Positions 9,001-30,325 of a stretch of DNA of 30,565 bases are shown here, in pieces. Source of the DNA: a virus; the IMG/VR virus record IMGVR_UViG_3300032325_000886, positions 1 through 30,565 of that record. One strand, given 5' to 3'. The number at the start of each line of letters is the position of its first letter. The first letter of the stretch is position 1. The notes beneath the pieces are model-generated. The model was not told where the DNA came from. It was given only the letters and a program-made list of their open reading frames with translations, and made no database searches. The position numbers were made by a program, and so were the translations under genes.

Positions 9001-12000
9001 ACTGTTTCGTTTGAGCTTCTGGCCTTTCCCGTCGATGCGGAAAATGATATTTCGTTTGGGGCCGTAACCAGCCCCGCCACATTGTTGTCTCGACTGGAGG
9101 AGTTAGGGGACACGACTACCGGTATCGAGTCGAGCAAGCAAAACAATGTCGCCAGGTTGCGCGAGCTTGCCAACATGGATGAAGCTGCTGCGTGGCCCTA
9201 CCAAGCCGAATACGATGCTCTCACCGCCGAGCGCGTGGAAGTGGAAAAACTCTACAACGCCGACCTAAAAGGCAAAACAGACGCAGTATCAAATGATACT
9301 ACTCTCTCCGCCGCGCGCCGTCAAGTTTATGACCCTAACCAGTTAGAACTCGATTTCGACGCCGCCCCGCGCGACCAAGCCGCCGCGAAGGAGGATGCCG
9401 AAAAATCCGCTGCCGCCCGCTTCCAGTCCGGACTCGATGGCATAATGGCTATGGCTTCCACCTACTCAAACATTCCTGGGGTGGACATGGACGAGGTGCG
9501 TCAGACCGCCCGGATTGCGCTGGCCGATGCTGCTCGCACATTTAATCCGCAGAGAGGCGTTCCATTTGGCCCTTACTCTTCCATTGTTGTGCGTAACAGG
9601 CTCAACGCGCTCTACCGGCGTGAAAATCTCCGCCGCAAGCGTATCCCTCAAAGCCTCGATGAGCCTTTGCCTGGTGATTTTGACGAAACACGCCAAGATT
9701 ACACTCCTGATACAAAAACGCCCGATGCTCCAGCGATGGCATCGCGCAATGAGGCTAAGTTGCTCATCGACGGTCTCATGGCGACTCTTCCCGAAAGGAT
9801 GCGCGTTGCCGTGGAGGGCTACCTGCAACAACGACAGCAGGAAGAAATCGGAGCAGCGTTTGGAATCAGCAAACAGGCCGTCAGTAAACTCCAACAAGAG
9901 GGGTTCAAGCGTCTTCGGCAAAAACTCAACGAGCGAGGCATCGGCAGCATGACAGAAATTCTTTCTGCGGCTCGAAAAAATCCGATGACTGGCACCCTTG
10001 CCGAAAGTATAGGCGAGTATGGAATATCCGGAACCCTACCACTCGACGCCCAAGACGGAATGGGAGAATTTGGAGCACAACTTGGAACGCAACCCGCACA
10101 AGATACCGCTCCCGTTCGACCCCTTGATGGACAAACCCGATTTGGCATCCCAGCCGAAAATGCCTTTTCCGAAATCTCCTACGCACCAGCGAGGGTTTGG
10201 GGTCTTCGTCGTCTCGCCGACCGATTTGAAGCCGAGCGCAACAGCGTAGGTGGGCAGGCAATCCAGTCGCCCATTTACCGCAGCGACTACGATGCCCACC
10301 AATCCGCATTTGCCAAAGCGGCGCAAGCTGCCGAGAGGCTTTACCGCGATACGCTAACCGTCGTGGATAACGCAAACAGCAGCCGCCGTGGCACGGCAGA
10401 TTATCTCCTGCCGCGCCTTCCCGAAGTGCGGGCTCTTTTTACGGATACTAATGGCCAAGTGCAATTTATTGGTGGCCGACCTATTGAGTTGGAATCTGGC
10501 GAACCTCTTTTCGCCGCCTCCGGCACACCTCAAGACGACGGAGATTTTATTGCTCCTGGCGAATCTTTTGAAAGCGACTTAAAAAATCTACTCAACGACC
10601 TCAATGGCGTTCCTGCCGATCTTGACAATGCTGTAGCAAAACAGGAACAAGCCGCTCTCGAAGAAGGTGGCGGGCAACGCTATCAAGTCGGTCGCCCAGA
10701 CTTGGCTTTCGGAGCAAACAACCCCGATGTGCGCGGGCTGGATCAATTTTACACCGATCGATTCCTTCCTGAAACCGAAGCCCAATGGGAAACCGCCGCT
10801 CGCGACATGGTGACAAAGGATTTTGAGGGAACCCGTCGTTCTATCGAGCAGGCTGGACTATCGGGGCAGACGATTTCTCCGGAACTCACCAAGGCCGCCG
10901 ACCAGATCGCCAACACGCTTCGCCAGAAAATGCTCCAGACTGGCAAGGATGCAGACCGGAAGGCGTTCAATGTTTTTTGGTATTCCTATCGCGCCACCGG
11001 CACCGAGGCTGGCCGCGCGCTGGCCGCACGCCGCGACCCCTTCAAGACGCCGGCCATGCGCCACCGCGAATTTCTCCTCGATCTCATGCTTACGCCAGGC
11101 AAGAAGGACAAACAAAAAATCGACGCGGAAAAAGACCCTGCCAAAAAAACAGCTATCATCGACAGCGTGACCGCTGCGCTTCTTAAAAAGCTCAAAGATG
11201 CCGGAATTTCTCCCGAAGACATTTTAGGCAACCGCGTGGTGGTGGGCTTGAACAATGCGGAGATTCAGCGCCAGTTCCGCAGCGGCCTCACGCCCAAGCA
11301 GGCCGAGGTCTTTGATCTCCTTTTGCGTAAAAACCAGACGCCCGCTCAAATTGCACAGCGCACCGGCATGAAGCCAGACGCAGTGGAGGCCGTATTCACC
11401 GCATTCAAAAACCGGATGCGCCAGCAACACCTCGCCAAATTCAAAGCCGGTATCCACAAGCAGAGCGAAGTCACATTGAAGGCCGCGCCCACACAAACCG
11501 GATTATTTGGCGGGCAGGTTTCGGACGCAGAAGCCGATGCGGCATTCGATCAATGGTTCAGCGGCATGGTGGGCACAAGCGACACCAAGAAAATCGGCCG
11601 GCCAAAATTCCGCATCGATGATCCCGCTCATGTGATGCGGCTTGCCCGCGCTATACAAAGCGCGCGGAGTGAAGCTGGCTTGGGGAACATGGCCTACGAG
11701 TGGTGGATCATGAACATTCTCTCGGGTCCACAAACACAAGTAACAAACATCGCGGGCAACGCGGGATTTCTTGCGCTCGACAGCACGCTGCAACGCGGCA
11801 TGGAGGCGTTGGTGAATGTATTTGTGCGCGACAAAAAAGCGGCGCAGCTTGGAGAATTCAAGTCGCTTGCCCGTGGCATCATGCCAGGCATTACCAAAGG
11901 CCTCGCCATGGCTGCCAAGGCTTGGAGCGCAGAACACGATTTCTACGAGCACACCGTTCTCGGAACACCTCTCGAACTCGGCCAATGGGATAAACTCGGC

Positions 12001-13636: not shown

Positions 13637-14203
13637 TTACGGCTTCCCCGTTGGCTTGATACCCAGCCGATTTGCGGCCATCTCGTAAACCTTGAAAGGC
13701 GCGTCGGGGTCGTTAAGTAGCGCGTGACCGGATTGCTCAATGTTTTTCCAAATCCTTTCCGCTTCTTCGTGGATCGGGTGGGTGGGGTCCAATGCTTCAG
13801 GATACACGCGATCCTTCTTTGCTTGGCTTCCCGCAACTCGTTGTTGGAATTTTGCCTCTAATTCAGCCTCGGAAAAAACAGGCTGTGTGACAGATTCCAT
13901 TCCCGCTTCTTGCTGTTCTTTTTCGTTTTCCCATTTTGTTGCAATTTTTACCCATTGATCAACGAGCCAAATATCATGCTGCCAATCTCTTGGGTCTCGA
14001 CTTAAAATTGGCTTTGGAGGGCATTCGTCAGGGTAATTTTTCGCGTAATACTCAACCTGTGATAGGAAATTTTGATACCGTTTTTCTTGGTTGGCTTGAC
14101 GCAATAGAAAATTAGTTTCTTTGATCTGTCGGGTTATTTCCCAATCAGCCGCTTCTGCGGCGCAAACCATAAACATAACGATTGCCAAAAGTCTTCTGGT
14201 CAT
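13637..14203 (-). CDS. Secreted small protein with a scaffold-like C-terminal domain
   Basis: 188 residues. The N-terminus is a good type I signal peptide: MTRR, then a hydrophobic LLAIVMFMVCAA core, then AEA before AD (cleavage expected after ~18). The Cys at 14 lacks a proper lipobox. The middle is charged and helical. The C-terminal ~66 residues match the C-terminal domain of the scaffold-like protein at 23881-24990 at about 37 of 66 positions by hand alignment, including DPxHPIHxExERIW and DAPFKxYxMAANxLGI. The gene is convergent with the giant gene (7 bp gap) and divergent from the gene at 14309. A weak AAGGT lies just before the ATG. I do not know its function. A scaffold domain on an exported protein is odd. 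Confidence 0.75.
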   Translation of the reverse strand: MTRRLLAIVMFMVCAAEAADWEITRQIKETNFLLRQANQEKRYQNFLSQVEYYAKNYPDECPPKPILSRDPRDWQHDIWLVDQWVKIATKWENEKEQQEAGMESVTQPVFSEAELEAKFQQRVAGSQAKKDRVYPEALDPTHPIHEEAERIWKNIEQSGHALLNDPDAPFKVYEMAANRLGIKPTGKP

Positions 14204-14308: not shown

Positions 14309-14977
14309 ATGGAAACACCTAAAGTCGAATCTGGAGATACCAAATTAAATAGGGCAAAAAACGCCGAGGCCGTCAAAAGCCAACCAACTGTTCGCCTTGT
14401 AGTTGCCCATTACAACGAGTCCCTAAATTGGCTTGTTGCTGTTCCGAAGGATTATTCCATCACAGTCTCTTTTGCAGGCGACGAGCCTCAAATCCCTGCC
14501 CGCGTAACTAACCCCGTAAAAATTGAAAAAACCGAGAATGGTGGAAAGGATTGCGGACAATGGATTCGCTGGATTGCAAAACATTACGATGAGCTGGACG
14601 ACATAATTTTGTTTTTACAGGGGAATCCTTACACTGGCCACACACCTGAAATTCTTTTAAAAATTTCCAGGGACGGCCTTAAAAATAAATTTGATTATTT
14701 TGGGAGTGGTCGCCCGTTTCACAAGAGCGTTGGGAAAGGGTGGCAGTTTGGTGAAATAACTTGGATTGTCCCTGCCGAGTTTCATGTGGAGCCTTTTAGC
14801 TGCGGTGTTTGGGGGTCGCAACATTATGTGACAAAGGATGTAATTCACCGTAGGCCCAAATCGTTTTACGAAAATTTGGCAGAAATATCTCTCGAACTTG
14901 GCGGGTCAAGGTTTGGTGATATTTGTGAATACTATTTCAATGTTATTTATGGCGTAACCATGGAAGAAATAACTTAA
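14309..14977 (+). CDS. DUF3431-like protein, possible glycosyltransferase-like enzyme
   Basis: 222 residues. The core reads RLVVAHYNESLNWLV near residue 29, then CGQWIRWIAKHYDEL, DDIILFLQGNPYTGHTPEIL (~90-120) and FHVEPFSCGVWGSQHYVTKD. This pattern (V-A-x-Y-N-E-x-L-x-W-L, then HYDxL-x-D-x-x-x-F-x-Q-G-x-P-x-x-H) is that of the DUF3431 family, whose members often sit among glycan genes. Catalysis is not established here. The gene opens the (+) cassette that contains two further glycosyltransferases. The start is ATG 14309, with a weak AGG 5' of it and a putative promoter just upstream. The call rests on motif recall, not a search. Confidence 0.6.
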   Translation: METPKVESGDTKLNRAKNAEAVKSQPTVRLVVAHYNESLNWLVAVPKDYSITVSFAGDEPQIPARVTNPVKIEKTENGGKDCGQWIRWIAKHYDELDDIILFLQGNPYTGHTPEILLKISRDGLKNKFDYFGSGRPFHKSVGKGWQFGEITWIVPAEFHVEPFSCGVWGSQHYVTKDVIHRRPKSFYENLAEISLELGGSRFGDICEYYFNVIYGVTMEEIT

Positions 14978-15001
14978 TGCCAAAATTTTAGATTTTTACA
15001 A

Positions 15002-15934
15002 ATGGCTAAAATTCTTCTTTCAAACCTCAATACAGCCATTGCAAGCATCATTGGAAAAATCAATGAAGGCGTAGTGGCGGCACGAGATACCGGCATTGCC
15101 TGGGCGCGAGTGCCAGAAAAGGTAGATTTCCAAGCAGAAGTTGTCACAGCCACCGAGCGGTTTACCCGCGCTCAGACCGTAAGCGGCGGCGGCGTGACGC
15201 GCGAAAGCGTCGAAGGGCAGCAGCTTACGGTGCAAGAACAAGACCCTGTTGAAACGGTTGTGGTGGAATCAAACGCAGAGGCCACTGCTCGCGTTGAAAT
15301 TTCTGCTGAATCAACCACCGATAAAAGCACCGAAACGGGAACCGAGACACAGACTTCGACTCAGACGAACACCGAAACGGGAACCGAGACACAGACTTCG
15401 ACTCAGACAAATACCGAGACTGCAACAGAAACACAGACTTCGACTCAGACGAACACCGAAACGGGAACCGAGACACAGACTTCGACTCAGACGAACACCG
15501 AGACCGGAACCGAGACGCAAACCTCGACTCAGACAAATACCGAGACTGCAACAGAAACACAGACCTCGACTCAGACAAATACCGAGACTGCAACAGAAAC
15601 ACAGACCTCGACTCAGACGAACACCGAAACGGGAACCGAGACACAGACCTCGACTCAGACAAATACCGAGACTGCAACAGAAACACAGACTTCGACTCAG
15701 ACGAACACCGAAACGGGAACGGAAACACAGACCTCGACTCAGACGGAAACGGAAACCAATACACAAACCGGAACTGAAACGGGAACTGAAACGGGAACTG
15801 AAACGGCTACTACTACGGAGACTCAAACGCAAACACAGACTTCGCAAACAAGGACATGCGATTTGTATTCTTATTACAGCCTTAGTAGTGGGGGATCTTT
15901 CAGTATTCAGAGCGGAGGGCAAAACTTTAGCTAA
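15002..15934 (+). CDS. Thr-rich 14-residue-repeat virion surface protein (putative)
   Basis: 310 residues. A non-repetitive N-terminal region (~1-108) with amphipathic helix and beta-like segments is followed by ten copies of a 14-residue unit E-T-G/A-T-E-T-Q-T-S-T-Q-T-N-T (residues 111-250), a degenerate Thr tail, and a distinct C-terminus (RTCDLYSYYSLSSGGSFSIQ). Every second residue of the unit is Thr. There is no signal peptide and no SD. The gene lies 24 bp after the DUF3431-like gene and 5 bp before a second repeat protein with the same period. It is likely a virion fibre or decoration protein and a candidate O-glycosylation acceptor. That role is inferred from composition and neighbours. 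Confidence 0.7.
   Translation: MAKILLSNLNTAIASIIGKINEGVVAARDTGIAWARVPEKVDFQAEVVTATERFTRAQTVSGGGVTRESVEGQQLTVQEQDPVETVVVESNAEATARVEISAESTTDKSTETGTETQTSTQTNTETGTETQTSTQTNTETATETQTSTQTNTETGTETQTSTQTNTETGTETQTSTQTNTETATETQTSTQTNTETATETQTSTQTNTETGTETQTSTQTNTETATETQTSTQTNTETGTETQTSTQTETETNTQTGTETGTETGTETATTTETQTQTQTSQTRTCDLYSYYSLSSGGSFSIQSGGQNFS
15332..15751 (+). repeat. Ten 42-bp tandem repeats (Thr-rich unit)
   Basis: Ten 42-bp units encode E-T-[G/A]-T-E-T-Q-T-S-T-Q-T-N-T. Two DNA subtypes are present. The Gly type uses GGA ACC GAG and the Ala type uses GCA ACA GAA. Their order is G G A G G A A G A G, with silent differences, which points to duplication and shuffling of older units rather than one recent burst. 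Confidence 0.95.
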
Positions 15935-15939
15935 CAACT

Positions 15940-16725
15940 ATGGCACTTGAAGATATAAATGGAATGCAAGCAAATGTCAGGGGGTCGCATAGCACCTCTG
16001 GGAGTTCGTCGCAAAGTTCCAGCCGGTCACAAAGTTCCAGCCGGTCGCAAAGCCGTTCATCCAGCACTTCGCAAAGTTCTTCACGAAGCCAAAGCTCTTC
16101 CAACAGCCAATCCTCGTCTCGTAGTCAGTCTGGCAGCCAGTCGAACAGCCAGTCATCGTCCCGCAGCCAGTCAGGTAGCCAGTCCAATAGCCAATCTTCT
16201 TCTCGCAGTCAGTCAGGTAGCCAGTCGAACAGCCAGTCATCGTCCCGCAGCCAGTCAGGTAGCCAGTCCAATAGCCAATCTTCTTCTCGCAGTCAGTCAG
16301 GTAGCCAGTCCAATAGCCAATCCTCGTCTCGTAGTCAGTCCGGCAGTCAGTCGAACAGCCAGTCCTCTTCCCGTAGCCAGTCCGGCAGTCAGTCGAACAG
16401 CCAGTCTTCTTCCCGCAGCCAGTCCGGTAGCCAGTCGAACAGCCAGTCTTCTTCACGCAGCCAGTCCGGCAGTCAATCCAGCAGCCAATCCTCTTCGCGT
16501 TCTGCAAGCACCTCCCGCAGCGGCAACACAAGTAGATCGAGCAGCGCGGCGGATAACCGCAGTGCTTCCCGCCGACAAGCAACTACGGAACCGCTGCGCA
16601 CCAGTCGCACTACAAATGGTGCAAAAACTACGATGACTACGGAAACTCCAAACCAACAAGAAACCGTCACTTTTGAGGATGAAAGCGTAATTGTTTCGTT
16701 TTCTATCCCAATCAAAGCCGCATGA
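15940..16725 (+). CDS. Ser-rich 14-residue-repeat virion surface protein (putative)
   Basis: 261 residues. A short N-terminus (MALEDINGMQANVRGSHS) is followed by a Ser/Arg/Gln-rich lead-in, nine 14-residue units S-Q-S-S-S-R-S-Q-S-G-S-Q-S-N (residues 56-181), a Ser/Arg/Thr-rich spacer, and a C-terminal beta-like segment (TVTFEDESVIVSFSIPIK). Ser occupies every odd position of the unit. There is no signal peptide. The stop overlaps the next gene's start (ATGA, 16722-16725), so it is translationally coupled to the GT-B glycosyltransferase. It resembles the dipeptide-repeat regions of serine-rich adhesins that are O-glycosylated by linked enzymes. The family itself is unknown to me. Confidence 0.7.
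   Translation: MALEDINGMQANVRGSHSTSGSSSQSSSRSQSSSRSQSRSSSTSQSSSRSQSSSNSQSSSRSQSGSQSNSQSSSRSQSGSQSNSQSSSRSQSGSQSNSQSSSRSQSGSQSNSQSSSRSQSGSQSNSQSSSRSQSGSQSNSQSSSRSQSGSQSNSQSSSRSQSGSQSNSQSSSRSQSGSQSSSQSSSRSASTSRSGNTSRSSSAADNRSASRRQATTEPLRTSRTTNGAKTTMTTETPNQQETVTFEDESVIVSFSIPIKAA
16105..16482 (+). repeat. Nine 42-bp tandem repeats (Ser-rich unit)
   Basis: Nine 42-bp units encode S-Q-S-S-S-R-S-Q-S-G-S-Q-S-[N/S]. Synonymous Ser codons (AGC/AGT/TCN) alternate between neighbouring units in the middle of the array, giving an 84-bp higher-order period. The period equals that of the unrelated Thr array 350 bp upstream. Confidence 0.95.
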
Positions 16726-17813
16726 TCTCATTTTTTGGCATTATTCATCAATCTGGCGGCTGTGGAGCCGAACTTCTTGGAGCGATTCATTTACTTCGCA
16801 AGAAAGGCGTGAAGGTGCGCTGCATCGTGCCAATGGATGATCCCGTGGCGCACGGCTCTCGCGCAAAGTGGCTCCGCTCGCTGGGCGTAACGGTTGTAAA
16901 CTATCGCCCAGGTATGTTTGAGCGCTGTCCGGCGCTTGTGAGCTTTGGCGAGGATACATGCTTTGACTACATGCGTGAATACGCCGACCGACCTAAGCAC
17001 ATGGTTTGGACGAGCGGCATGTCTTTTGGAGTCGATGTGGAATACAATGCGTTACGAGACGGGCTTATTGACGAATTTTTCTTTCAGACCCCAGAAAACG
17101 CTCAAAGAGTGGCCCCGCAAATTCTAAAAGGCTGCGGGATAGACCCGATTCAAATCAAAGCCCGCCAGAATTACATCCCGTTCATCGACCCCGATTGCGA
17201 ATTGATGCCGCTGGCTATCGAAGAGCGTTCTGAGAACGAGTTTGTGGTAGGTCGGGCTACTCGTGACGACCCAGAAAAATGGCACGACGAAAGTTGGCGT
17301 ATGTATGGGAACATACTTGTTCCTCAACATAAATCTTTACTTGTGAGAGTTGCGGGGTGGGGGCAGAACGCCTTGGAAAAAGTGGGGAGCCCGTGTGATC
17401 CCACCAGTAAGTGGGCGGGGTATTTTAATTTGCAGTTGAACGGGCATATTTACGGCTCCCAAGAAATGGCGGCGTTTTACAAAAATATCCATGTGCTTCT
17501 GCACTACTACCCATGCGTAGAATCGTTTGGGTATTCTACGGTTCAGGCCATGCTCGCCGGGGCGATCCCTATCGGAGCAAATGAAGGGGGCTTCAAGGCA
17601 TTGATTCAACATGGGGAAACTGGGTTCTTGGCCCACAGCCCAGATGAGGCAACCTACTACGCTTCCTCTCTTGCATTTGATGAAAGCCGTCGTCAACGCA
17701 TGAGCGAAGCCGCTCGAAGCTGGGTCATTAACGAGGGCCCCGGAAGTGTGGAAAAAGCATGGCCGTGGTGGCGTGACTTATTGAATGTTTTAGGAATCCC
17801 CATCCCGAATTGA
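16722..17813 (+). CDS. GT-B glycosyltransferase (GT4-like)
   Basis: 363 residues with a two-domain GT-B layout. The N-terminal part starts GIIHQSGGCGAELLGAIHLL and contains VRCIVPMDDPVAHGSRAKWL and CPALVSFGE. The C-terminal donor-binding part has HYYPCVESFGYSTVQAMLAG (259-278), then AIPIGANEGGFKALI and GETGFLA. The E-x7-E motif of GT4-like enzymes appears as E267-x7-Q275, a conservative change at the second acid. It overlaps the Ser-repeat gene by 4 nt (ATGA) and is followed directly by the next ORF. Expected role: transfer of a sugar from a nucleotide donor, with the adjacent repeat proteins as plausible acceptors (inferred). Confidence 0.82.
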   Translation: MISFFGIIHQSGGCGAELLGAIHLLRKKGVKVRCIVPMDDPVAHGSRAKWLRSLGVTVVNYRPGMFERCPALVSFGEDTCFDYMREYADRPKHMVWTSGMSFGVDVEYNALRDGLIDEFFFQTPENAQRVAPQILKGCGIDPIQIKARQNYIPFIDPDCELMPLAIEERSENEFVVGRATRDDPEKWHDESWRMYGNILVPQHKSLLVRVAGWGQNALEKVGSPCDPTSKWAGYFNLQLNGHIYGSQEMAAFYKNIHVLLHYYPCVESFGYSTVQAMLAGAIPIGANEGGFKALIQHGETGFLAHSPDEATYYASSLAFDESRRQRMSEAARSWVINEGPGSVEKAWPWWRDLLNVLGIPIPN

Positions 17814-17815
17814 TT

Positions 17816-18421
17816 ATGGAGATAGAGCCTTTCCGCCATATAAACAACTTGCCGGACATAGCTTCAGGGGCCAAGCCTTCCAACGTTGTGCAACCTCGTA
17901 TGTATCGGCAGGCGATGATTAAGGACAAGGACAACAATATCTATGCGGTGTATGGGGATAGGTTAAAGAAGGGAGCGATAACCGATGGTGTGCCTTGGCA
18001 GGCTATGGAACTCGGACAGGACGGGTCGGGTTACTCTTTCAGGGTCTACCCCGGCACGATAAACAACATATTGCCATCTAACACTTTTTTAAGTGACGGC
18101 GGGCTTGTTAAGTTTTCTATATCGGCTGGTCAAAAACACTATTTGTTCCTTGATGTTGCTACGGACGGAACCAAAGTGACATTGGCTACCTTGAAAGTCG
18201 AAAGCAATCTGCCAACCAATGCCGCTCCCGTGAGCGAGGGGATTGCGCCTGCAAAAATTGTCATTCCGTTGGGGGTAATTCAAGACAAATCAGCGCTGGC
18301 TTTGCGTAGCTCGTCTTTAACTGCATCGCCTGTCGTTGCTGGCAGTCGCTCAATAGCTCCAGCGAGTCCCAACGACGAGCCGTTCATCCGCCTCTGGATG
18401 TGGAAGGTAGAGGGCAAATGA
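17816..18421 (+). CDS. Hypothetical virion-associated protein
   Basis: 201 residues from ATG 17816, which lies 2 bp after the GT-B stop. A TTG at 17810 overlapping that stop is a possible alternative start. The sequence is beta-rich: NNIYAVYGDRLKKGAI, GSGYSFRVYPGTINNILPS, GQKHYLFLDVATDGTKVTLA, APAKIVIPLGVI, and a C-terminus WMWKVEGK. No known family is recognised. The mix of short beta strands and the context of repeat and fibre-like genes suggest a virion appendage protein. The 3' end overlaps the next start (ATGA, 18418-18421). Confidence 0.65.
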   Translation: MEIEPFRHINNLPDIASGAKPSNVVQPRMYRQAMIKDKDNNIYAVYGDRLKKGAITDGVPWQAMELGQDGSGYSFRVYPGTINNILPSNTFLSDGGLVKFSISAGQKHYLFLDVATDGTKVTLATLKVESNLPTNAAPVSEGIAPAKIVIPLGVIQDKSALALRSSSLTASPVVAGSRSIAPASPNDEPFIRLWMWKVEGK

Positions 18422-20094
18422 CCACCCGACAGGTTCCATACTACGATTTTATCCCATTAGAGACGTTTCGTTATGCCGATGAATTTACTACACGCACCCA
18501 CGATGATTTTGGCGAGAACACTTTCAATTCTATTTATGTTGTAAGCTACACTCCTTCAAACAGGCCAATTACAGCTTACGAAGACTATGTTTCTTTTTAT
18601 TCAACCACGACGAGTATCCCGTCTGCCAAAGTGGTTTCTGTCGGAACAGAAACATCCTTGAGCCTAACAACTGGCGCAACAACAACAAGCCGTTTTCGAT
18701 TCTCGGGGGGTGCGCGAAAAACTATCGGGTCTACCCCGGTGCAGGGTAGCGCAGTGACGTCACAGAGAGTCGCAAAGCAATCTGAAACATCTCCTTATGG
18801 CGGAATCAGATTTGAAGTCTTCGACAATTCTGACGACAACTCTGTGTTTAGCGTGGTCGCGGGGGCGGGCGGGTTGCCTTCGTATCAGGAATTACAAGCT
18901 GGGCAAGTTATTGGGGGGAAAGCGGGATGGTCGTTTCAAGTGACTCCAGTGCAGGTTGTAATGCTCGACTCGGATGGTAATGGCGATTACCCTGTTGTGG
19001 ACATTGTAACATCAGAAGGCACTTCGACTTGGACGGAGTATCTTTATGATGACCCGCAAATAACGGTTTATTCGGTTAGCAAAACGGCCAACCGTGTATC
19101 GGTAGGCACAACTCCCCAAATACAAACGCTGGCAATAGAATCTTATTCATATAATACAACTTTAAGCTCATCAACTTATGAATACTTGAAAGCAAACACA
19201 ACGGATTTTACCGCAGAGGTATTTGAGCCTTACACAAAAACCGGGTTTACTTCAACAGAGTATGATAATCTGGGAGCATTTATAGCTCAAAAAACTTTTT
19301 TATACGGGAAAACAAAAAGCGTTTCTTTTCAGCGGCACTCCAAATCAACATATAACGGCACTGCGTTTTCTGACCCTCCGTATGTCGCGCTGACTAAAGG
19401 TGAAGAATTTGACGGGATCAGGGTCCGCGTATTCAGAACATTTTCTGGACGACTTCCTTGGCACAACTATGGTATGCAGCCCATTATAGCGGGGGCCCCG
19501 GGCGAAAACTTTTTTTTAGAGCCAGTCGGCCCTCCCTGCATTGGTGGAATTCATCGAAGCGGAAATAACTTTGGGCTGGCCGACAACTGCCCTTACACTT
19601 TTCCTGCCAGCTTGCTTTGGCCGGGGCAACACAAGTCAGAACAGGTCGCCCCCTTTGCGTCTTTTTTCTATGAAGGCGGGGTCCCTTTAATTTCGCACAG
19701 CATCACTTGGGAACATGATGCTCGCACTTACAACTGGGTAACTGCCGATGGGGTAAGAGGAGAAATACAAGTGCAAGGTAAGGTTAATGATACAAGCGTA
19801 AGTAGCGCTAAATTCAGTATAAGTGTGACAGGAGACTGTAATTATACGGGGGTAAATGTAACTACACAGGCAGGTGGAGAATACTTTTCCGATAAGAAAG
19901 CCACTTTAGTAGCCAACTCTCCTCTTATTGTTTCGATCCAAGGCGGAACCAAAACTTTTGGTCAGGGAACTTTTGAAATAACAGAACCCATGCGCTTTAA
20001 AACACAGTTAGCTGCTGGTTCTGTCATTGATCCCGGCGTAATCATTATTGGGAAAACTTACGTAGCAAGTAGAAATGTGTTTATTGCTCGATGA
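18418..20094 (+). CDS. Large beta-rich putative virion/tail protein
   Basis: 558 residues from ATG 18418, chosen because it overlaps the upstream stop as ATGA and has a GAGGG-like purine run upstream. An in-frame ATG at 18400 would add six residues. Composition is rich in Ser, Thr, Tyr and Gly with many short strands (YAAS-type loops, VVDIVTSEGTSTWTEYLY, GGVPLISHSITWEHDARTY, KFSISVTGDCNYTGVNVTT). No signal peptide or membrane segment is seen. It is probably a structural appendage or baseplate-like protein. The coding stretch looks more A/T-rich than the capsid genes. It overlaps the GT-A-like gene by 4 nt. No family is recognised. Confidence 0.65.
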   Translation: MTTRQVPYYDFIPLETFRYADEFTTRTHDDFGENTFNSIYVVSYTPSNRPITAYEDYVSFYSTTTSIPSAKVVSVGTETSLSLTTGATTTSRFRFSGGARKTIGSTPVQGSAVTSQRVAKQSETSPYGGIRFEVFDNSDDNSVFSVVAGAGGLPSYQELQAGQVIGGKAGWSFQVTPVQVVMLDSDGNGDYPVVDIVTSEGTSTWTEYLYDDPQITVYSVSKTANRVSVGTTPQIQTLAIESYSYNTTLSSSTYEYLKANTTDFTAEVFEPYTKTGFTSTEYDNLGAFIAQKTFLYGKTKSVSFQRHSKSTYNGTAFSDPPYVALTKGEEFDGIRVRVFRTFSGRLPWHNYGMQPIIAGAPGENFFLEPVGPPCIGGIHRSGNNFGLADNCPYTFPASLLWPGQHKSEQVAPFASFFYEGGVPLISHSITWEHDARTYNWVTADGVRGEIQVQGKVNDTSVSSAKFSISVTGDCNYTGVNVTTQAGGEYFSDKKATLVANSPLIVSIQGGTKTFGQGTFEITEPMRFKTQLAAGSVIDPGVIIIGKTYVASRNVFIAR

Positions 20095-21155
20095 TCGCCA
20101 TCACCGTCGCCGCAACTAAGTCTTACCTACACGCATGGCCCCAGTGCGTCCGTGCCATTGCAGCCGCTGCGTCCCACCATGACGAGGCGCACTTTATTTT
20201 AGCAACCGACGAAAGCAAGGAAGCCAAATCTGCGTCAGAACTTGCCAAGCAGGACTTACCAGAGGGCTGGAAGGTGAGCGTTCTTGCACTGCCAATGAAA
20301 GATGACTCCAGCACACGCTACAAGGAGGAAGCGCAAATGCGGATTGCCGCCCTCCAAGGAGCTTGCTTTTCATTTGCCAGAAAGATACGCGCCTCTCGTT
20401 GCCTTGTTGTAGAAAGCGACACAATTCTTCCGGCTGACGCCCTGCGTGTGCTGGAATGGGCGCTTGATATGCCAACGGCGGATGGGTCGCCACACTACGA
20501 CATCGCCGCAGCAACCTACCCTAACGGGCTTTTCCTTGGCGGGTTCGGTTCTCCACAGCACCAGATTGCCGAGGATTTCCTGCCTCACGAAAGGAAATTA
20601 CGCCCACGGCTCAAATTGGCTTTTGATGAGTGCGAAAAACGGCTAAAAGCTATCAAGCCTCCGACCAATCAAGAGGAAGCACAGGCCGCGCAAAAAATCG
20701 GCGAGAAAGAGAGCAAGCGCATGGGAAGGCTTCGCGAGCGGGTGAAAAACGCGCCACCGGACGGCAACATCTGGGAAGTGACTGCCAAACACGGATGGAG
20801 AAGGCGCGGATGGATGGACTTTGCGTATCCTGGCATTGGATACGGGGCAATTGTCCCGTCCGATTGGTGCGGGCTGGGCTGCACGCTGCTTTCCAAACGA
20901 GCCTTGGCGCACGCAGACTTTACCGGCTACGAAGGCAAAGGCACTCAAGACCTTTTCTTGTGCTGGTCGCGCTGGCACCCCGCTGGATTGAAAATCGCCT
21001 GTGTCCCACACATTGCCTGCGACCACATCAAGCGTAAATCGTCCGATGCTCCGAAAGACGCTCCCAACATCATTCACTACCGCGCATACCATGAGACAGA
21101 GGGGGAATGCCGAGGCCATCTGCGGGTGCGCCAACAACCGTTTATTTCCGTATGA
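20091..21155 (+). CDS. GT-A-like glycosyltransferase with helical insert
   Basis: 354 residues. The N-terminal Rossmann-like start (MIAITVAATKSYLHAWPQCV, then HFILATDES) and a LVVESDTILP segment with a D-x-D-like E108-S-D110 fit a GT-A nucleotide-sugar-binding fold. The C-terminal third has GLGCTLLSKRALAHADFTG, then GTQDLFLCWSRWHPAGLKI and CVPHIACDHIK, the usual acceptor-side 'G-x-G, QD, G-K, H' pattern of GT2-type enzymes. A charged helical insert (~180-225) separates the halves. It is the last gene of the (+) cassette and is coupled to its neighbour by ATGA. It likely acts with the GT-B enzyme on phage structural proteins (inferred). Confidence 0.72.
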   Translation: MIAITVAATKSYLHAWPQCVRAIAAAASHHDEAHFILATDESKEAKSASELAKQDLPEGWKVSVLALPMKDDSSTRYKEEAQMRIAALQGACFSFARKIRASRCLVVESDTILPADALRVLEWALDMPTADGSPHYDIAAATYPNGLFLGGFGSPQHQIAEDFLPHERKLRPRLKLAFDECEKRLKAIKPPTNQEEAQAAQKIGEKESKRMGRLRERVKNAPPDGNIWEVTAKHGWRRRGWMDFAYPGIGYGAIVPSDWCGLGCTLLSKRALAHADFTGYEGKGTQDLFLCWSRWHPAGLKIACVPHIACDHIKRKSSDAPKDAPNIIHYRAYHETEGECRGHLRVRQQPFISV

Positions 21156-21334
21156 AGGACACAATGTATTGCAATGACGCATTGCTTCCAGAAAACGGAG
21201 ATTGGTTTGATTTGAGCGCGTTGCTGGAATCAAATTTCCGACCGATTCAAATCAGGGAGATCGCATCCTTTTCCAGCCCCAGCAGTGAGCGACAACCGGC
21301 GGCGTCGGACTCAAGTAACCCGCGCACGGCATAA
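21152..21334 (+). CDS. Possible small ORF (60 aa) coupled to the GT-A-like gene
   Basis: ATG 21152 overlaps the upstream stop as ATGA, the junction style used throughout this cassette, and gives a 60-residue peptide starting MKDTMYCNDALLPENGDWFD. The last 88 bp run antisense to the opposite-strand gene ending at 21247 and read like a shadow, so the real protein may be only the first ~30 residues or may not exist. No family is recognised. Confidence 0.28.
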   Translation: MKDTMYCNDALLPENGDWFDLSALLESNFRPIQIREIASFSSPSSERQPAASDSSNPRTA

Positions 21335-21525
21335 AGCTCAGCAAGCGCGGTTTTGGCTTTTGGGAATTCGGACTCTGGAAAACTTGAACTGAGGATATGC
21401 GTCTCGCGGGAAACGATTGTTTCGTTTAACCGCCGCAAGAAATAGCCGGTAAAATCTGTATTCCGCATGAGGCGGTCGATTGATTCCAGGTCGCGCTGGG
21501 CGCGGTATTTTTCGTCGTGCGTCAT
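21247..21525 (-). CDS. Small protein following portal and tRNA
   Basis: 92 residues, helical and charged: MTHDEKYRAQRDLESIDRLM, NTDFTGYFLRRLNETIVS, FPKAKTALAELYAVRGLLES. Small helical proteins of this type with an 'x-D-F-x-G-YFLRRLNE' segment commonly sit beside phage portal genes. Their role is unclear to me (perhaps a head-assembly accessory). The start ATG lies 2 nt after the CCA end of the tRNA gene, so there is no room for an SD outside the tRNA. It is transcribed with the portal and convergent with the GT-A-like gene. Confidence 0.7.
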   Translation of the reverse strand: MTHDEKYRAQRDLESIDRLMRNTDFTGYFLRRLNETIVSRETHILSSSFPESEFPKAKTALAELYAVRGLLESDAAGCRSLLGLEKDAISLI

Positions 21526-21527
21526 AG

Positions 21528-21601
21528 TGGTAGCAGGACATGGAATCGAACCATGAACTTCTCGTTATGAGCGAGACGAGATACCATTTCTCTATCCTGC
21601 A
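21528..21601 (-). tRNA. tRNA with CAT anticodon (Met or Ile2), CCA encoded
   Basis: On the minus strand the 74-nt sequence folds as a full cloverleaf. Acceptor TGCAGGA pairs with TCCTGCT (six pairs plus a U1-U72 mismatch). U8 and A9 are present. The D arm is GAG/CTC with a GG-containing loop. The anticodon stem is TCTCG/CGAGA with loop CTCATAA. The variable region is 4 nt. The T arm is CATGG/CCATG with loop TTCGATT. The discriminator is A, followed by CCA. The anticodon stem lacks the three G-C pairs of initiator tRNA, so elongator Met or lysidine-modified Ile2 (AUA) is likelier. It lies 18 nt after the portal stop. Confidence 0.9.
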
Positions 21602-21619
21602 GTTTGGAGGTTGCAAAAA

Positions 21620-23785
21620 TCATTGGAGGGGTGGGGAACCAGGCGCGGGTTGAGGAGCCAATAACGCGGGATCAAGCGGCTCGATGAGTGAATCGGGCTG
21701 CGGCACCTTGAGGCTCTTGAGGCGGGCGCGCGCATACGGCGCGGTGCGTTCCTGAAGCGGAAGCGGGCGGGCGTAGAAATTGTTAATCACGCCATCGGCA
21801 ATGTTGCCGGCTTCCAAAATCTGCCGGTCGCGGGCTTGGGTGATCGAGAGGCGGATATTGAGCGAGAGGTCGCGCACATCGTCGGGCGTGAGTTCCAAGA
21901 TTTCCTGCGCGCTGCCGTTGAAATAAGTAAAAACCTGGCGCTCGTTGAGATTCGTGAATGCGACATCAACAACGGACTGCAACGACTCGTGGAGCGACGG
22001 GTAAAGCCGCAAAAGAAACATATCAAACATCTCCGCGCCGCTGTCGCGCACTTCATTGATGCCGGTAGCGGTATCCGCCGTGGGAAGGCCAGAGATTTGC
22101 TGATCCGCTCCGTTGACCACGCCGCTCTTGATTTGCATGAATTGCATGAAGAGTTCCATGAGCGCGCGCAACCCTTGGCCCTTGGGTTCCGGCAATGACA
22201 CATAGGACAGAGCTGCTTCGGCTTTCATTCCTTCCCGTAGCGTGTAGGTGCGCCCGTGGTTGAGCTTGAGCGCCGGATCGCGCTGACCCTCAAGCGTGGC
22301 CCACGGCGACCAGAAGGTAACTCTGCCCGATGCTCCTTCCAAAAAATTCTGCCTATTGAGTTGCAAGTCGATGAAATCCTGCTCTGGCTCGAAATACTCC
22401 ATCGCCCCAATGCCATACCACCGGCCATCAACTTCCATAGGGCGAATCACCGTAAATGGACGCAGGCCGCGCAGCGTGACATTGGCCGTGTAGTCGTAAA
22501 AAATGGGAGCCTTGTTGCGCCGGTCGAGAACCATCATGATTTCCTCTTGGATGCCGTCGCCATCAGCATCGTAGGTCAACCAGCATTCGGCCAACTGCAC
22601 CTTTGGATTGTTCACGCTGCCTTCGGTATCGCGCTCGCCAAAATCCGGACGAGGCTGATCCGCCGCGCTCTTGGGCATATTGGAATCGCTCACCATATTC
22701 CGCAGCAATTCCACAGCGCCTTCGATTTCCTGCCTCCGCGCATCGCCCTCGGCAAATTGCCCGCCGAACATTTGGGCGAGATCCATAACGCTTTTATCGT
22801 AGAGGTGCGCCACCATATCGGCCTCGCCAGCTTGGATGCCAGGAGCGTCGAGAGGGCAGATGAAATCCTTGTAATAGCAAATACGCGAATCCGGCCCGCT
22901 CCAAGTCACCAGGCGGCGCACGATTTCTCCGGTGGTGTAGAGAGGCTGTTGCGGGAAAATTGTCACGCCGTCGCGCTTGAGAACCATGTTTCCGGTTTCG
23001 ACCACTTGCACATCCTGAATCGGCATTCCTGCTTCGTCCTGCATGGTGACAGGCTGCTCCGCTGTTTCTGGAACAAACAAATCGGAGTCGAGAATGTAGT
23101 CGCCGTATGCGTCAAGCAATGGCTCGCCAGCTTCGTCAATCAAATAGGTAGCCGTGCGCTTGTAGATTTGGAACCGTTCTTGGTGCGTAGTCTTCAGCAC
23201 GGATTCTCCGCGCACCCACGCAAATTCCAGCGCCTGCACATGCCGTTCCTTGACCTTGCATTTTTTGGCAATATGGCGGGCATATTTTTTCACCTTGTCG
23301 GCAAGCGCGTCATCCTCCAATCCCACTCCCTCGGCGGTGAACCACTCGTCATCGTCCGGACGCCCATAGAAGAAAGTGCTGCTCTTGGCGATCATTTGCC
23401 CGCAAATCCGCTGGGAGAGCGAAGCCGTAAGGTTGGAATGCTCGAAAATCGTATCCTTCTCCACGCGGTCAGATACATGGTTGTAATACCGCGCTGTAAA
23501 TTTTTCACGCTTCCCTAAAAAACTGCCTGGCTCGCATTGAATACTGAAATCGTCGCCTGGTATCGTGCCGTGGCTGTTTACAGCCTGCCGCTTGCCCATT
23601 TGCTTTTCAATCTGGTCGAGCCGCAAAAGCGCGTGCGCCACCAAAGCCTCCTCCTGATCGCGCGTGAGCTTGTAGCCGCTTTTAAAAGGCATTCGCGGAC
23701 TGGAGTCACTGAGCCGCTTGGGAGCAGGCAAACTCTCTTCCAGCTTCTGAACTTGGAAACTATCTGCGGCGTTTGTGGTGGTCAT
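21620..23785 (-). CDS. Portal protein
   Basis: 721 residues. The central part carries the P22/podovirus-type portal signature: LTYDADGDGIQEEIMMVLDR (~405-424), then RPFTVIRPMEVDGRWYGIGA and EYFEPEQDFIDLQLNRQNFL (~448-487). An acidic ADTATGINE loop and helical C-terminal stretches follow, then a Pro-rich tail. Portals form the dodecameric ring at the DNA-packaging vertex. The gene is on the opposite strand to all other morphogenesis genes and starts from a strong promoter only ~10 nt before its ATG, with no SD. The N-terminal ~30 residues are probably disordered. A nested + strand frame across it is a shadow. Confidence 0.88.
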   Translation of the reverse strand: MTTTNAADSFQVQKLEESLPAPKRLSDSSPRMPFKSGYKLTRDQEEALVAHALLRLDQIEKQMGKRQAVNSHGTIPGDDFSIQCEPGSFLGKREKFTARYYNHVSDRVEKDTIFEHSNLTASLSQRICGQMIAKSSTFFYGRPDDDEWFTAEGVGLEDDALADKVKKYARHIAKKCKVKERHVQALEFAWVRGESVLKTTHQERFQIYKRTATYLIDEAGEPLLDAYGDYILDSDLFVPETAEQPVTMQDEAGMPIQDVQVVETGNMVLKRDGVTIFPQQPLYTTGEIVRRLVTWSGPDSRICYYKDFICPLDAPGIQAGEADMVAHLYDKSVMDLAQMFGGQFAEGDARRQEIEGAVELLRNMVSDSNMPKSAADQPRPDFGERDTEGSVNNPKVQLAECWLTYDADGDGIQEEIMMVLDRRNKAPIFYDYTANVTLRGLRPFTVIRPMEVDGRWYGIGAMEYFEPEQDFIDLQLNRQNFLEGASGRVTFWSPWATLEGQRDPALKLNHGRTYTLREGMKAEAALSYVSLPEPKGQGLRALMELFMQFMQIKSGVVNGADQQISGLPTADTATGINEVRDSGAEMFDMFLLRLYPSLHESLQSVVDVAFTNLNERQVFTYFNGSAQEILELTPDDVRDLSLNIRLSITQARDRQILEAGNIADGVINNFYARPLPLQERTAPYARARLKSLKVPQPDSLIEPLDPALLAPQPAPGSPPLQ

Positions 23786-23880: not shown

Positions 23881-24990
23881 ATGCCCACTAACGATCAGGC
23901 GCAAGCCGACAAATTGGACACCGCAACGGCGGACGGGAATGCCAGTGCCACAGAGGCACAGGCCACTGCGTCCGATAATCAACCCGCGACAACCGCCTAC
24001 ACCGCTCCGGCTACGGAGGGAGTGGCGGCCATGGATGATTACATGAAGAGGCTGCAGGAAGCCTTGGAACCGGCCACCGATGGTGACGCCGCAAACGACG
24101 CTGACCAGGTAGGGGATAACCCACCTGCCACCGAAGGGAACGACGCTCCACCAAACGACGCTGACCAAGACACAATCCCAGCCACGGACGAGACGCCGCC
24201 AAGCCCAACCGAGTCGGAAGAAGACAGCGTGAAGCGCCGTCAGCGAGTGACAACACACGATGACACCAACGCTTTTGCTCTCCAAATCTACCGGCAGGCA
24301 GTCAATAACGGCACGCCGATCAATTTTGACACAGCTTTTGCTCGCGCCAAAGAGGCGCTTGGGATTTCTGACGCTCCTGTTGACAGCGAAAAGCAAACAG
24401 AAAATGTCAAGCCCATATTAGCACCTCAAGAGATTGAATCTAAAATTGAGCAGTTAAGAGCCGAACGGAAGGAAGCTGCCGCCAATATAGATACGGTCAA
24501 GCAAAACGAGCTTACCGAGGAAATCGAGGCATTGCGCGACCAATTAAAAGACGCCCGCGAGGCCGTCATTAGTGGTGAGCAGCAATTCCAAAAGCAGGTT
24601 TCTGAAAGCTACGCTAAGACCGATTCAATCTATCCGGCCGCTACTGATCCGAAGCACCCAATCCACGCCGAAGTCGAGCGTATCTGGTCTGCCATGCAGA
24701 GCCAAGAAAACCCGCTTATTTCGGATGCGGACGCTCCGTTCAAGATTTATCAAATGGCCGCAAATGCCCTTGGTATCGCTCCGTCCTCTTCATCCAGCAA
24801 ATCATCTCCGGCCCCCACTCCACGCCCGCAAGCCGTGCAGCAAAGTGCAGCGGTTCGTCGCACAAACCAGCAGTCGCCCGTCGCTTCCGGCGGCGACCGC
24901 ACAATCACACCGACGACCGCCTCATCTCTGCCAAACGGCCTTCCGCGCTCTACTTTTGAATACGATCAAATGATTCACAGTCTTCAATAG
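23881..24990 (+). CDS. Scaffold-like capsid assembly protein
   Basis: 369 residues. The N-terminal ~130 residues are acidic, Ala/Thr/Asp/Pro-rich and low complexity. Then come a folded-looking part (THDDTNAFALQIYRQAVNNG), a coiled coil (~180-238, EIESKIEQLRAERKEA and LTEEIEALRDQLKDAREA), and a conserved C-terminal domain (~240-300) with DPKHPIHAEVERIW and DAPFKIYQMAANALGI. A Ser/Pro-rich basic tail follows. Position directly before the major capsid gene plus an acidic coiled-coil layout fits a phage scaffolding protein. Its C-terminal domain recurs in the secreted protein at 13637-14203. The start ATG has no SD and is close to its putative promoter. Confidence 0.7.
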   Translation: MPTNDQAQADKLDTATADGNASATEAQATASDNQPATTAYTAPATEGVAAMDDYMKRLQEALEPATDGDAANDADQVGDNPPATEGNDAPPNDADQDTIPATDETPPSPTESEEDSVKRRQRVTTHDDTNAFALQIYRQAVNNGTPINFDTAFARAKEALGISDAPVDSEKQTENVKPILAPQEIESKIEQLRAERKEAAANIDTVKQNELTEEIEALRDQLKDAREAVISGEQQFQKQVSESYAKTDSIYPAATDPKHPIHAEVERIWSAMQSQENPLISDADAPFKIYQMAANALGIAPSSSSSKSSPAPTPRPQAVQQSAAVRRTNQQSPVASGGDRTITPTTASSLPNGLPRSTFEYDQMIHSLQ

Positions 24991-25083: not shown

Positions 25084-26580
25084 ATGGCATACGACATCTC
25101 AGCGCCCGTCACGGGCACAAAACTCGCCACGATGGCTCCGGACGCAGTCCGGCGGCTGTGGCAATCCGGCATCGACTTGTTCGAGCAAAGCGAAGACTTC
25201 TTCGCACCTATGGAGGGAGGCCCCAACTCGATCATTTTCGAGAAGACCGACCTCTCCAAAGGCCGTGGTCAAAAAATCACCTTCACCGTTGGCAGCGGAT
25301 TCTACGACGAACCGCACATCGGCGAGCAGATTTTCGAGACCCAAGACGACTACGAGGAATTCCTCATCAATACTCACGACCTTGTTGTCGATTGGGTGCG
25401 TCACGGCGTTCGCGTCTCAGAGCGCACCGAAGAACTCATGGGAATGCGCAACGAAATCCAGACCGGCTTTAACACCCAGCAGGGTGCATGGGCCGGACGC
25501 TTGAAGAGCGAACAGCTTTTCATGATGTTCCGCGAGTCCCTGCCTTCCGACAACATCCTCTACGCAGGCGGGAAAACAGTCAACACGCTCACCAGCGCTG
25601 ATACGCTGGACTGGGATGAGATCATCGGCTTGGGAGCTATCCTGAAAACCAAAGGTGGCGAACCCGCTCAAGTTGGTGCGCTCAAGAACGGACAACCCGT
25701 GTTCCGTAACACCGTAATCGCCACAAGCGATGCGTTGTTCAGCCTGGACATGGACCCCACCTACAAGCAAATCCTGCGCGACACGAAAGTGGAGCAATAC
25801 GCGAAGATGCTCTTTGAAGGTGGATACTCCGCTCCCAAAGGACACATCATCACGGAATACACTCCTATCGACCACGACGGCGAAGGTGCGATCGGAAGCC
25901 CGCTTAACCCGCAAGCCCGTTTGGGAACAGCCATCGCCCCAGGCACAGCCCCATTTGCTGTGACCGGCGGAGGCAATTCGACCAGCGCGGCGAAGACCAA
26001 AAAGAAATACTTCAAGTATTTCGAGAACTTCCAATACAAGTTCATCGGGAATCTTGATGCGACAGCCGGTGGAGCTACCACAGTGGGTCAAGACGCCAAC
26101 ACGCACTACCTGCTCATCATCAATCCGGCTAACGCCGCGACCGATCCAGGTAAAATCGGAATGTATGCCTACACCACTGGCAACAACGGCAACCAAATCA
26201 CCATTACCAAGCGCCTCGGTGCAGCCGCCTCCGGCGACCGCGTGACCACGCTTGGCAATGTGGTATGGAACACCGGAGCATGGCTGAACAGGCACACCGA
26301 CACGCATCCCGCAGGATCGCTTGTGGTGCAATGCAACGCTAATGGCGTGCCACTTGGCCACAGCTTCATGCTTGGCAAACGCGCCGCTTACCGTGGATAC
26401 GGCAAGCATCGCAACCAGCGTGTGCAGGATGACAAAGAGGGCGGCTTCCTCATGGAGCGATACATCGTCTCCGTGTTCGGCCAATCTCTCCGCAAGGACC
26501 GCCTTGGCCGCGTGCCAAGCGCCGTGCGCCTCACCCACGCCATCTCGATCCCAGGCGTGAGCCTGCCGACGATTAGCTGA
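25084..26580 (+). CDS. Major capsid protein (N4-gp56-like family)
   Basis: 498 residues. The N-terminal third matches the layout of N4-gp56-type major capsid proteins. After PDAVRRLWQSGIDLFEQSED there is an SIIFEKTDLSKGRGQKITFT segment (~50-69; family signature 'I-x-x-K-T-D-L-x-K-x-x-G-x-x-I-T-F'), then HIGEQIFETQDDYEEFLI and THDLVVDWVRHGVRVSERTE. The C-terminal end has YRGYGKHRNQRVQDDKEGG, then RYIVSVFGQSLRK and VRLTHAIS, like the HK97-fold C-terminal domain of this family. An inserted Gly/Thr-rich region (~285-310) may be a surface loop. It follows the scaffold-like gene by 93 nt and is followed by a GC-rich hairpin. No SD before ATG 25084. Confidence 0.85.
   Translation: MAYDISAPVTGTKLATMAPDAVRRLWQSGIDLFEQSEDFFAPMEGGPNSIIFEKTDLSKGRGQKITFTVGSGFYDEPHIGEQIFETQDDYEEFLINTHDLVVDWVRHGVRVSERTEELMGMRNEIQTGFNTQQGAWAGRLKSEQLFMMFRESLPSDNILYAGGKTVNTLTSADTLDWDEIIGLGAILKTKGGEPAQVGALKNGQPVFRNTVIATSDALFSLDMDPTYKQILRDTKVEQYAKMLFEGGYSAPKGHIITEYTPIDHDGEGAIGSPLNPQARLGTAIAPGTAPFAVTGGGNSTSAAKTKKKYFKYFENFQYKFIGNLDATAGGATTVGQDANTHYLLIINPANAATDPGKIGMYAYTTGNNGNQITITKRLGAAASGDRVTTLGNVVWNTGAWLNRHTDTHPAGSLVVQCNANGVPLGHSFMLGKRAAYRGYGKHRNQRVQDDKEGGFLMERYIVSVFGQSLRKDRLGRVPSAVRLTHAISIPGVSLPTIS

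Positions 26581-28558: not shown

Positions 28559-30321
<1,763 letters not shown>

Positions 30322-30325
<4 letters not shown>

Follow-up and report, generated by a model that had tools for sequence, protein, structure and literature searches.

A GT-A-type glycosyltransferase gene paired with a gene for a hypervariable Ser/Thr-rich protein: a candidate virion glycosylation cassette in uncultivated phages

This analysis concerns positions 1 to 30,565 of the IMG/VR virus record IMGVR_UViG_3300032325_000886 (the window), a 30.6-kb piece of the genome of an uncultivated phage, with a block of seven plus-strand genes at 14309-21155. A first-pass annotation had read these genes (DUF3431, Thr-repeat, Ser-repeat, GT-B, two further proteins and a GT-A-like enzyme) as a system in which the repeat proteins are O-glycosylated by their neighbours. 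The gene content, strand and coordinates were confirmed, as was the placement of the glycosyltransferase genes among late, virion-type genes, and a glycosylation cassette is still the reading that we propose, but with other partners. As judged from sequence, the robust association links the GT-A enzyme with the hypervariable Ser/Thr-rich protein encoded at 18418-20094, to which the annotation had given no more than the label 'probable virion protein'. The genes of the block are as follows.

14309..14977, plus strand: DUF3431 family member, probably an enzyme that modifies or transfers sugars (PF11913, E 8e-9)
15002..15934, plus strand: Thr-repeat protein (Trep), with an N-terminal domain of about 55 residues, an acidic (T-x)n linker made up of about 10 copies of NTETGTETQTSTQT, and a short C-terminal tail
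15940..16725, plus strand: Ser-repeat protein (Srep), with a basic (S-x)n region made up of about 9 copies of NSQSSSRSQSGSQS, and a conserved C-terminal segment ending ED...VSFSIPI
16722..17813, plus strand: GT-B glycosyltransferase of the GT4 type (PF00534)
17816..18421, plus strand: g17816, a small protein preceding the hypervariable protein, with homologs after the tape-measure gene in siphovirus-like relatives
18418..20094, plus strand: hypervariable Ser/Thr-rich and Tyr-rich protein, proposed main glycan acceptor and probably tail-associated
20091..21155, plus strand: predicted GT-A-fold glycosyltransferase of a large phage family (structure model, profile search)

Four-nucleotide overlaps, thought to occur at most junctions, were found at three of the six, each as an exact ATGA: between the Ser-repeat and GT-B genes, where this coupling had been noted before, between g17816 and g18418 (the gene of the hypervariable protein), and between g18418 and the GT-A gene. 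The other junctions are gaps of 24, 5 and 2 nt. The open reading frames (ORFs) listed at 17810 and 18400 probably start at the ATG codons at 17816 and 18418, respectively.

Directly upstream of the GT-A gene, 42 of the 44 loci checked have an ORF for a Ser/Thr-rich protein of 337-945 residues. The combined serine and threonine fraction (S+T) of these upstream proteins has a median of 0.30 (n=43) and reaches 36%, compared with 0.116 for other long ORFs from these loci (n=187). The enzyme is conserved where its neighbour is not: among 14 pairs of loci with GT-A proteins at least 93% identical, the upstream proteins lacked detectable similarity in 11, and among close relatives with 92-95% identical GT-A and 95-99% identical portal proteins, the 18418-20094 protein was undetectable by BLAST in most pairs. 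Many of the hypervariable proteins are nevertheless remotely similar to some other member, with local identities of roughly 23-72%, and thus seem to form one rapidly evolving family and not a set of unrelated inserts. A search among viruses by conserved peptides found no relatives of the window protein itself, and its single PHROG match was weak (phrog_37152, function unknown, E 6e-4). The small gene g17816 completes a conserved triad, with a homolog in 71 of 75 GT-A loci. A tape-measure gene precedes the triad in locus L102 (phrog E 6e-20) and, by gene order, in L154, which points to siphovirus-like tails, and we consider the hypervariable protein to be probably tail-associated. A gene for a nucleotide-sugar epimerase/FdtA-like cupin lies near the GT-A gene in 31 loci (PF14667, E 1.7e-9).

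The first-pass annotation was right that the two enzymes are glycosyltransferases, GT-B by family and GT-A by modelled fold. For GT-A, the only Pfam match was sub-threshold (GT2, E 0.013), and a profile search against PDB sequences returned chance matches only. An AlphaFold2 model built from 45 homologs had a predicted local distance difference test score (pLDDT) of 80 and a predicted template modelling score (pTM) of 0.75, whereas an earlier model from 5 sequences (pLDDT 43) was unusable. The best PDB match of the later model was COLGALT1 (Foldseek E 7e-8; VIA Z 18.0; root-mean-square deviation 3.3 over 236 residues), and the PDB matches listed were all glycosyltransferases or enzymes with a glycosyltransferase domain, so that the model confidently predicts a nucleotide-sugar GT-A fold. 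Within it, an acidic E-x-D motif, in which E108 and D110 are invariant across the 45 homologs, is a putative metal-binding motif. A profile search recovered at least 90 viral relatives in IMG/VR. In metagenome-assembled genomes (MAGs), a GT-A relative at 79% identity is encoded on a siphovirus-like contig binned with Chthoniobacter, another at 38% comes from a different Verrucomicrobiota MAG, and one at 61% from a short contig of a Burkholderiales MAG. The hosts are possibly Verrucomicrobiota; MAG binning errors are possible, and this assignment is therefore only a hint.

The DUF3431 match scores 35.9 bits (cut-off 25). Homologs stand directly upstream of GT-B in L044, L045, L175 and L177, and in a second phage group (L150, L156, L157, L166 and L169; PF11913 E 2e-14 in L166) directly downstream of GT-A, before the epimerase-like cupin. 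GT-B is assigned by PF00534 (E 5e-12, 46.1 bits against a cut-off of 26.4), and R181, K186 and E267, corresponding to the R...K and E of the C-terminal domain, are invariant in its alignment. At the position of the second Glu of the EX7E motif (residue 275), the window group, L044 and L045 have Gln, whereas L021 has Glu.

In the reading that we propose, and regard as evenly poised, the block is a cassette of late genes for glycosylation. Its main substrate would be the hypervariable protein, probably associated with the tail, and the repeat pair may be a second one. In this mechanism, GT-A would add sugars, presumably from a nucleotide-sugar donor, to Ser/Thr (or Tyr) residues of the 18418-20094 protein in the host cytoplasm, helped by the DUF3431 protein and, in the lineage of the window, also by the GT4-type GT-B enzyme. 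The decorated protein, translated just before GT-A, would then be built into the virion, most likely into the tail. As an exposed protein under selection it would become hypervariable while the decorating enzyme stays constant, and the benefit could be host binding, protection or escape from recognition. Trep and Srep, encoded next to GT-B in the window lineage, may be extra substrates of that enzyme. A wider version of this proposal, which we hold only tentatively, is that a conserved GT-A family and its hypervariable Ser/Thr-rich tail protein form a dedicated and widespread phage O-glycosylation system, common to podovirus-like and siphovirus-like phages that possibly infect Verrucomicrobiota; DUF3431 and the epimerase-like cupin would be further parts. 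The enzyme would read composition or a simple Ser/Thr/Tyr context, freeing the whole sequence of the protein to vary.

Several points weigh against these proposals. Gene adjacency and Ser/Thr richness do not by themselves prove modification, and beta-structured tail proteins rich in Ser, Thr and Tyr occur without glycans. The GT-A loci were selected by GT-A itself, and the contrast with GT-A-absent phages, in which the proteins in the corresponding slot have an S+T of 0.12-0.17, consists of four genomes (the G078 slot protein was left out) in which homology of the slot proteins is unestablished. The best PDB matches of GT-A are collagen galactosyltransferases, with a template modelling (TM) score of 0.45. 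The COLGALT1 match raised the idea of a collagen-like fibre as acceptor, which was dropped; a collagen-like ORF occurs in only 6 of 78 GT-A loci, and the acceptor is therefore not readable from the fold.

Most of what is known about the glycosylation of phage virions comes from mycobacteriophages. In Che8, Corndog and Myrna, as far as the work of Freeman et al. (2023) is summarised in two papers citing it (PMC12363180, PMC11256854), phage-encoded glycosyltransferases decorate virion proteins and shield the particle. The system proposed here would share this principle. However, the acceptors named in those summaries are capsid and tail-tube proteins rather than a hypervariable Ser/Thr-rich one, and the window GT-B, GT-A and DUF3431 proteins had no match in 50,697 records of cultured phages (tblastn, E<=1e-5). 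No published description of the GT-A/hypervariable-protein cassette was found in the open-access literature searched. If the proposal is correct, a compact cassette of one glycosyltransferase and one hypervariable tail-associated protein would be a sequence signature of virion glycosylation in uncultivated phages, the DUF3431 family would gain a testable function, and the system could be used to ask if glycans make it possible for a recognition protein to diverge.

The repeat proteins form a separate pair. The Thr array (15328-15756) and the Ser array (16102-16500) both have a period of 42 bp (14 residues), and their alternation contrast is 0.82 and 0.80, respectively, compared with 0.18 after shuffling. 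Differences between repeat copies are nearly all synonymous, with ratios of nonsynonymous to synonymous differences (pN/pS) of 0.07 (Thr) and 0.00 (Ser), so that purifying selection keeps the peptide and not the DNA. All 10 Trep proteins measured were acidic and all 8 Srep proteins basic, and the C-terminal segment of Srep is kept in divergent homologs. A profile of the Trep N-terminal domain matched 10 further records (G001, G002, G003, G005, G007, G010, G030, G035, G036 and G078). The pair follows a connector-type gene, g27670, in G005 and G078 (in G030, Trep follows g27670 and the contig ends there) and follows g26640, beside the capsid gene, in G003, G035 and G036. The searches that were run against Pfam, NCBIfam and PHROGs assigned no family to the repeat proteins or to g17816.

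The expected co-occurrence of repeats and glycosyltransferases held for one enzyme only. Nine GT-B records have sufficient length for a judgement (the window, G001, G002, G007-G010, G030 and G078), and every one of them has a repeat gene as well, whereas 45 of 50 GT-A-bearing records, many of them fragments, had no convincing or only a marginal match to the Trep N-terminal domain, which speaks against the repeat proteins as regular partners of GT-A. L044 and L045 were considered as cases of GT-B without repeats and were dropped; these contigs stop short of the head genes, and in the longer, related G030 and G078 one or more repeat genes are present elsewhere. Neither GT-B nor GT-A was found by the searches made in G003 and G005, where the pair stands alongside capsid/connector genes; the pair is thus not tied to GT-B. 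Each pair-bearing record examined does have some glycosyltransferase, of differing families (GT4, GT9, GT34 with methyltransferase, or GT-A), and given the nine co-occurrences a link between GT-B and the repeats may exist.

These distributions bear on an alternative that is compatible with GT-A acting on the hypervariable protein and that we judge to fall just short of an even chance, namely that the repeat proteins are unglycosylated structure: charge-complementary, alternating linkers of extended or beta-forming type in the neck or tail, in which the alternation itself serves structure. It accommodates the acidic and basic partners and the pairs in G003 and G005. It also fits Srep homologs of G035 and G036 that alternate Asn in place of Ser (RNSNSNEN; L106 44-607 and L107 1118-1657, contrast 0.85 and 0.64), a substitution that a Ser O-glycan scaffold, as first envisaged, does not predict. 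However, strong Ser/Thr alternation is also a feature of O-glycosylated serine-rich repeat regions of bacteria. Moreover, the Srep and GT-B genes overlap or abut both in the window group and in G001, although their GT-B proteins are only 44% identical, suggesting that the adjacency may be old or selected. In our view, the repeat proteins are a separate, ancient pair of oppositely charged, low-complexity proteins from the capsid-connector region, probably part of the particle, and thus a second candidate virion component, as yet unexplained.

The bacterial counterpart, serine-rich repeat adhesins glycosylated by GtfA/GtfB in accessory Sec clusters (PMC6973325), resembles the window in that long Ser/Thr repeats are encoded beside a GT4-type glycosyltransferase. 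The differences are considerable. The GtfA/GtfB pair carries DUF1975, which was not found in GT-B (Pfam scan, E<=1, with only Glycos_transf_1-type families significant), and SecA2 and SecY2 were not noticed here. By inspection, without a signal-peptide program, the N-termini MAKILLSNLNTAIASIIGKINEGVV and MALEDINGMQANVRGSHST show no long cleavable signal peptide or accessory-Sec transport domain, and the C-termini, which end in GGSFSIQSGGQNFS and VSFSIPIKAA, have no LPXTG wall anchor. In the phages, the repeats also occur without GT-B and can be based on Asn.

A further alternative to the virion glycosylation cassette is that the glycosyltransferases modify host surface polysaccharide, blocking superinfection or remodelling the receptor, and lie with the receptor-binding region only because both change along with the host surface. 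The family of the GT9 heptosyltransferase-like genes that occupy the slot beside the portal gene in relatives is best known from lipopolysaccharide synthesis, which the epimerase-like cupin would fit equally well. Pelagimyophage host-recognition islands provide a published precedent, with glycosyltransferases beside tail fibres that were read as O-chain modification (PMC7029224). Because of this precedent and the position of the GT9 genes, the alternative is a serious one, but on balance we consider it unlikely. No membrane partner (flippase, Gtr-like) was noticed within 14309-21155, the S+T of the neighbouring protein is high with GT-A and low in the four genomes without it, and the one-to-one, often overlapping pairing of GT-A with a structural-type gene is more specific than host-surface modification needs. 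Both systems combine hypervariable recognition genes with glycosyltransferases in the structural region; however, the pelagimyophage islands span about 45 kb and many genes, in contrast to a compact triad with a one-to-one partner on podovirus-like and siphovirus-like contigs. Some bacterial GT9-type enzymes glycosylate adhesins. The GT9-like enzymes beside the portal in relatives recall the autotransporter glycosylation by heptosyltransferases of the TibC type (PMC3835316), although they are not paired with a repeat adhesin.

A role in glycosylating hypermodified phage DNA, of the kind known from T4-type phages, is very improbable: phage glycosyltransferases are often DNA glucosyltransferases (PMC12619734), but here the genes are placed with virion rather than replication genes, the thymidylate-synthase/hydroxymethylase family (PF00303) was not found in the 17 viral records searched, which may be incomplete, and by eye the replication part of G010 holds no obvious base-modification genes.

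The block is followed in the window by these features.

21528-21601, minus strand: tRNA-Met gene, between the glycosylation module and the portal gene
21620..23785, minus strand: portal protein (SU10-like), marking the late/virion region (PF23899, E 1.5e-15; phrog_1216, E 1e-14)
25084..26580, plus strand: probable major capsid protein (conserved position and wide recovery; identity suggested by gene order)
28559..30325, plus strand: collagen-like tail fibre (PF01391, E 2e-19; PHROG tail-fibre families)

The probable major capsid gene served as bait for fetching relatives without reference to the glycosyltransferases. L002-L006 preserve the order Trep, Srep, GT-B, g17816, hypervariable protein, GT-A, portal as far as their contigs extend, with varying repeat length; DUF3431 is not at its window position in L002 and L005. 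In G001, the portal and glycosylation/repeat genes form one inverted block with respect to the capsid gene (L076 9873-18523, corresponding to window 14309-23785). Among relatives, the glycosyltransferase families beside the portal are GT4, GT9 and GT34-methyltransferase. Non-homologous enzymes occur there at L080 3786-6043 (G003), L084 13492-14673 (G004) and G006:C1:28341-28850; they are GT9-like, and G003 also has a GT34-like domain fused to a methyltransferase. Near g17816-like genes, L076 13627-14880 and L084 11939-12796 encode a Cys-rich protein with GACC...C repeats, presumably of a kind associated with Planctomycetes.

Upstream of the block, an ORF of over 4,500 residues with an open end (1-13629) encodes a giant polyvalent protein with methyltransferase-like, SNF2-helicase-like and sigma-factor-like stretches recognised by eye; its counterpart in G010 exceeds 5,500 residues. 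Between this ORF and the block, a small minus-strand gene (13637-14203) encodes a protein with a signal-peptide-like start. Its product and that of 23881-24990 (plus strand, upstream of the capsid gene) have in common a C-terminal segment of about 69 residues, with about 50-57% identity in close relatives, which may have arisen by duplication of part of a scaffold-like protein.

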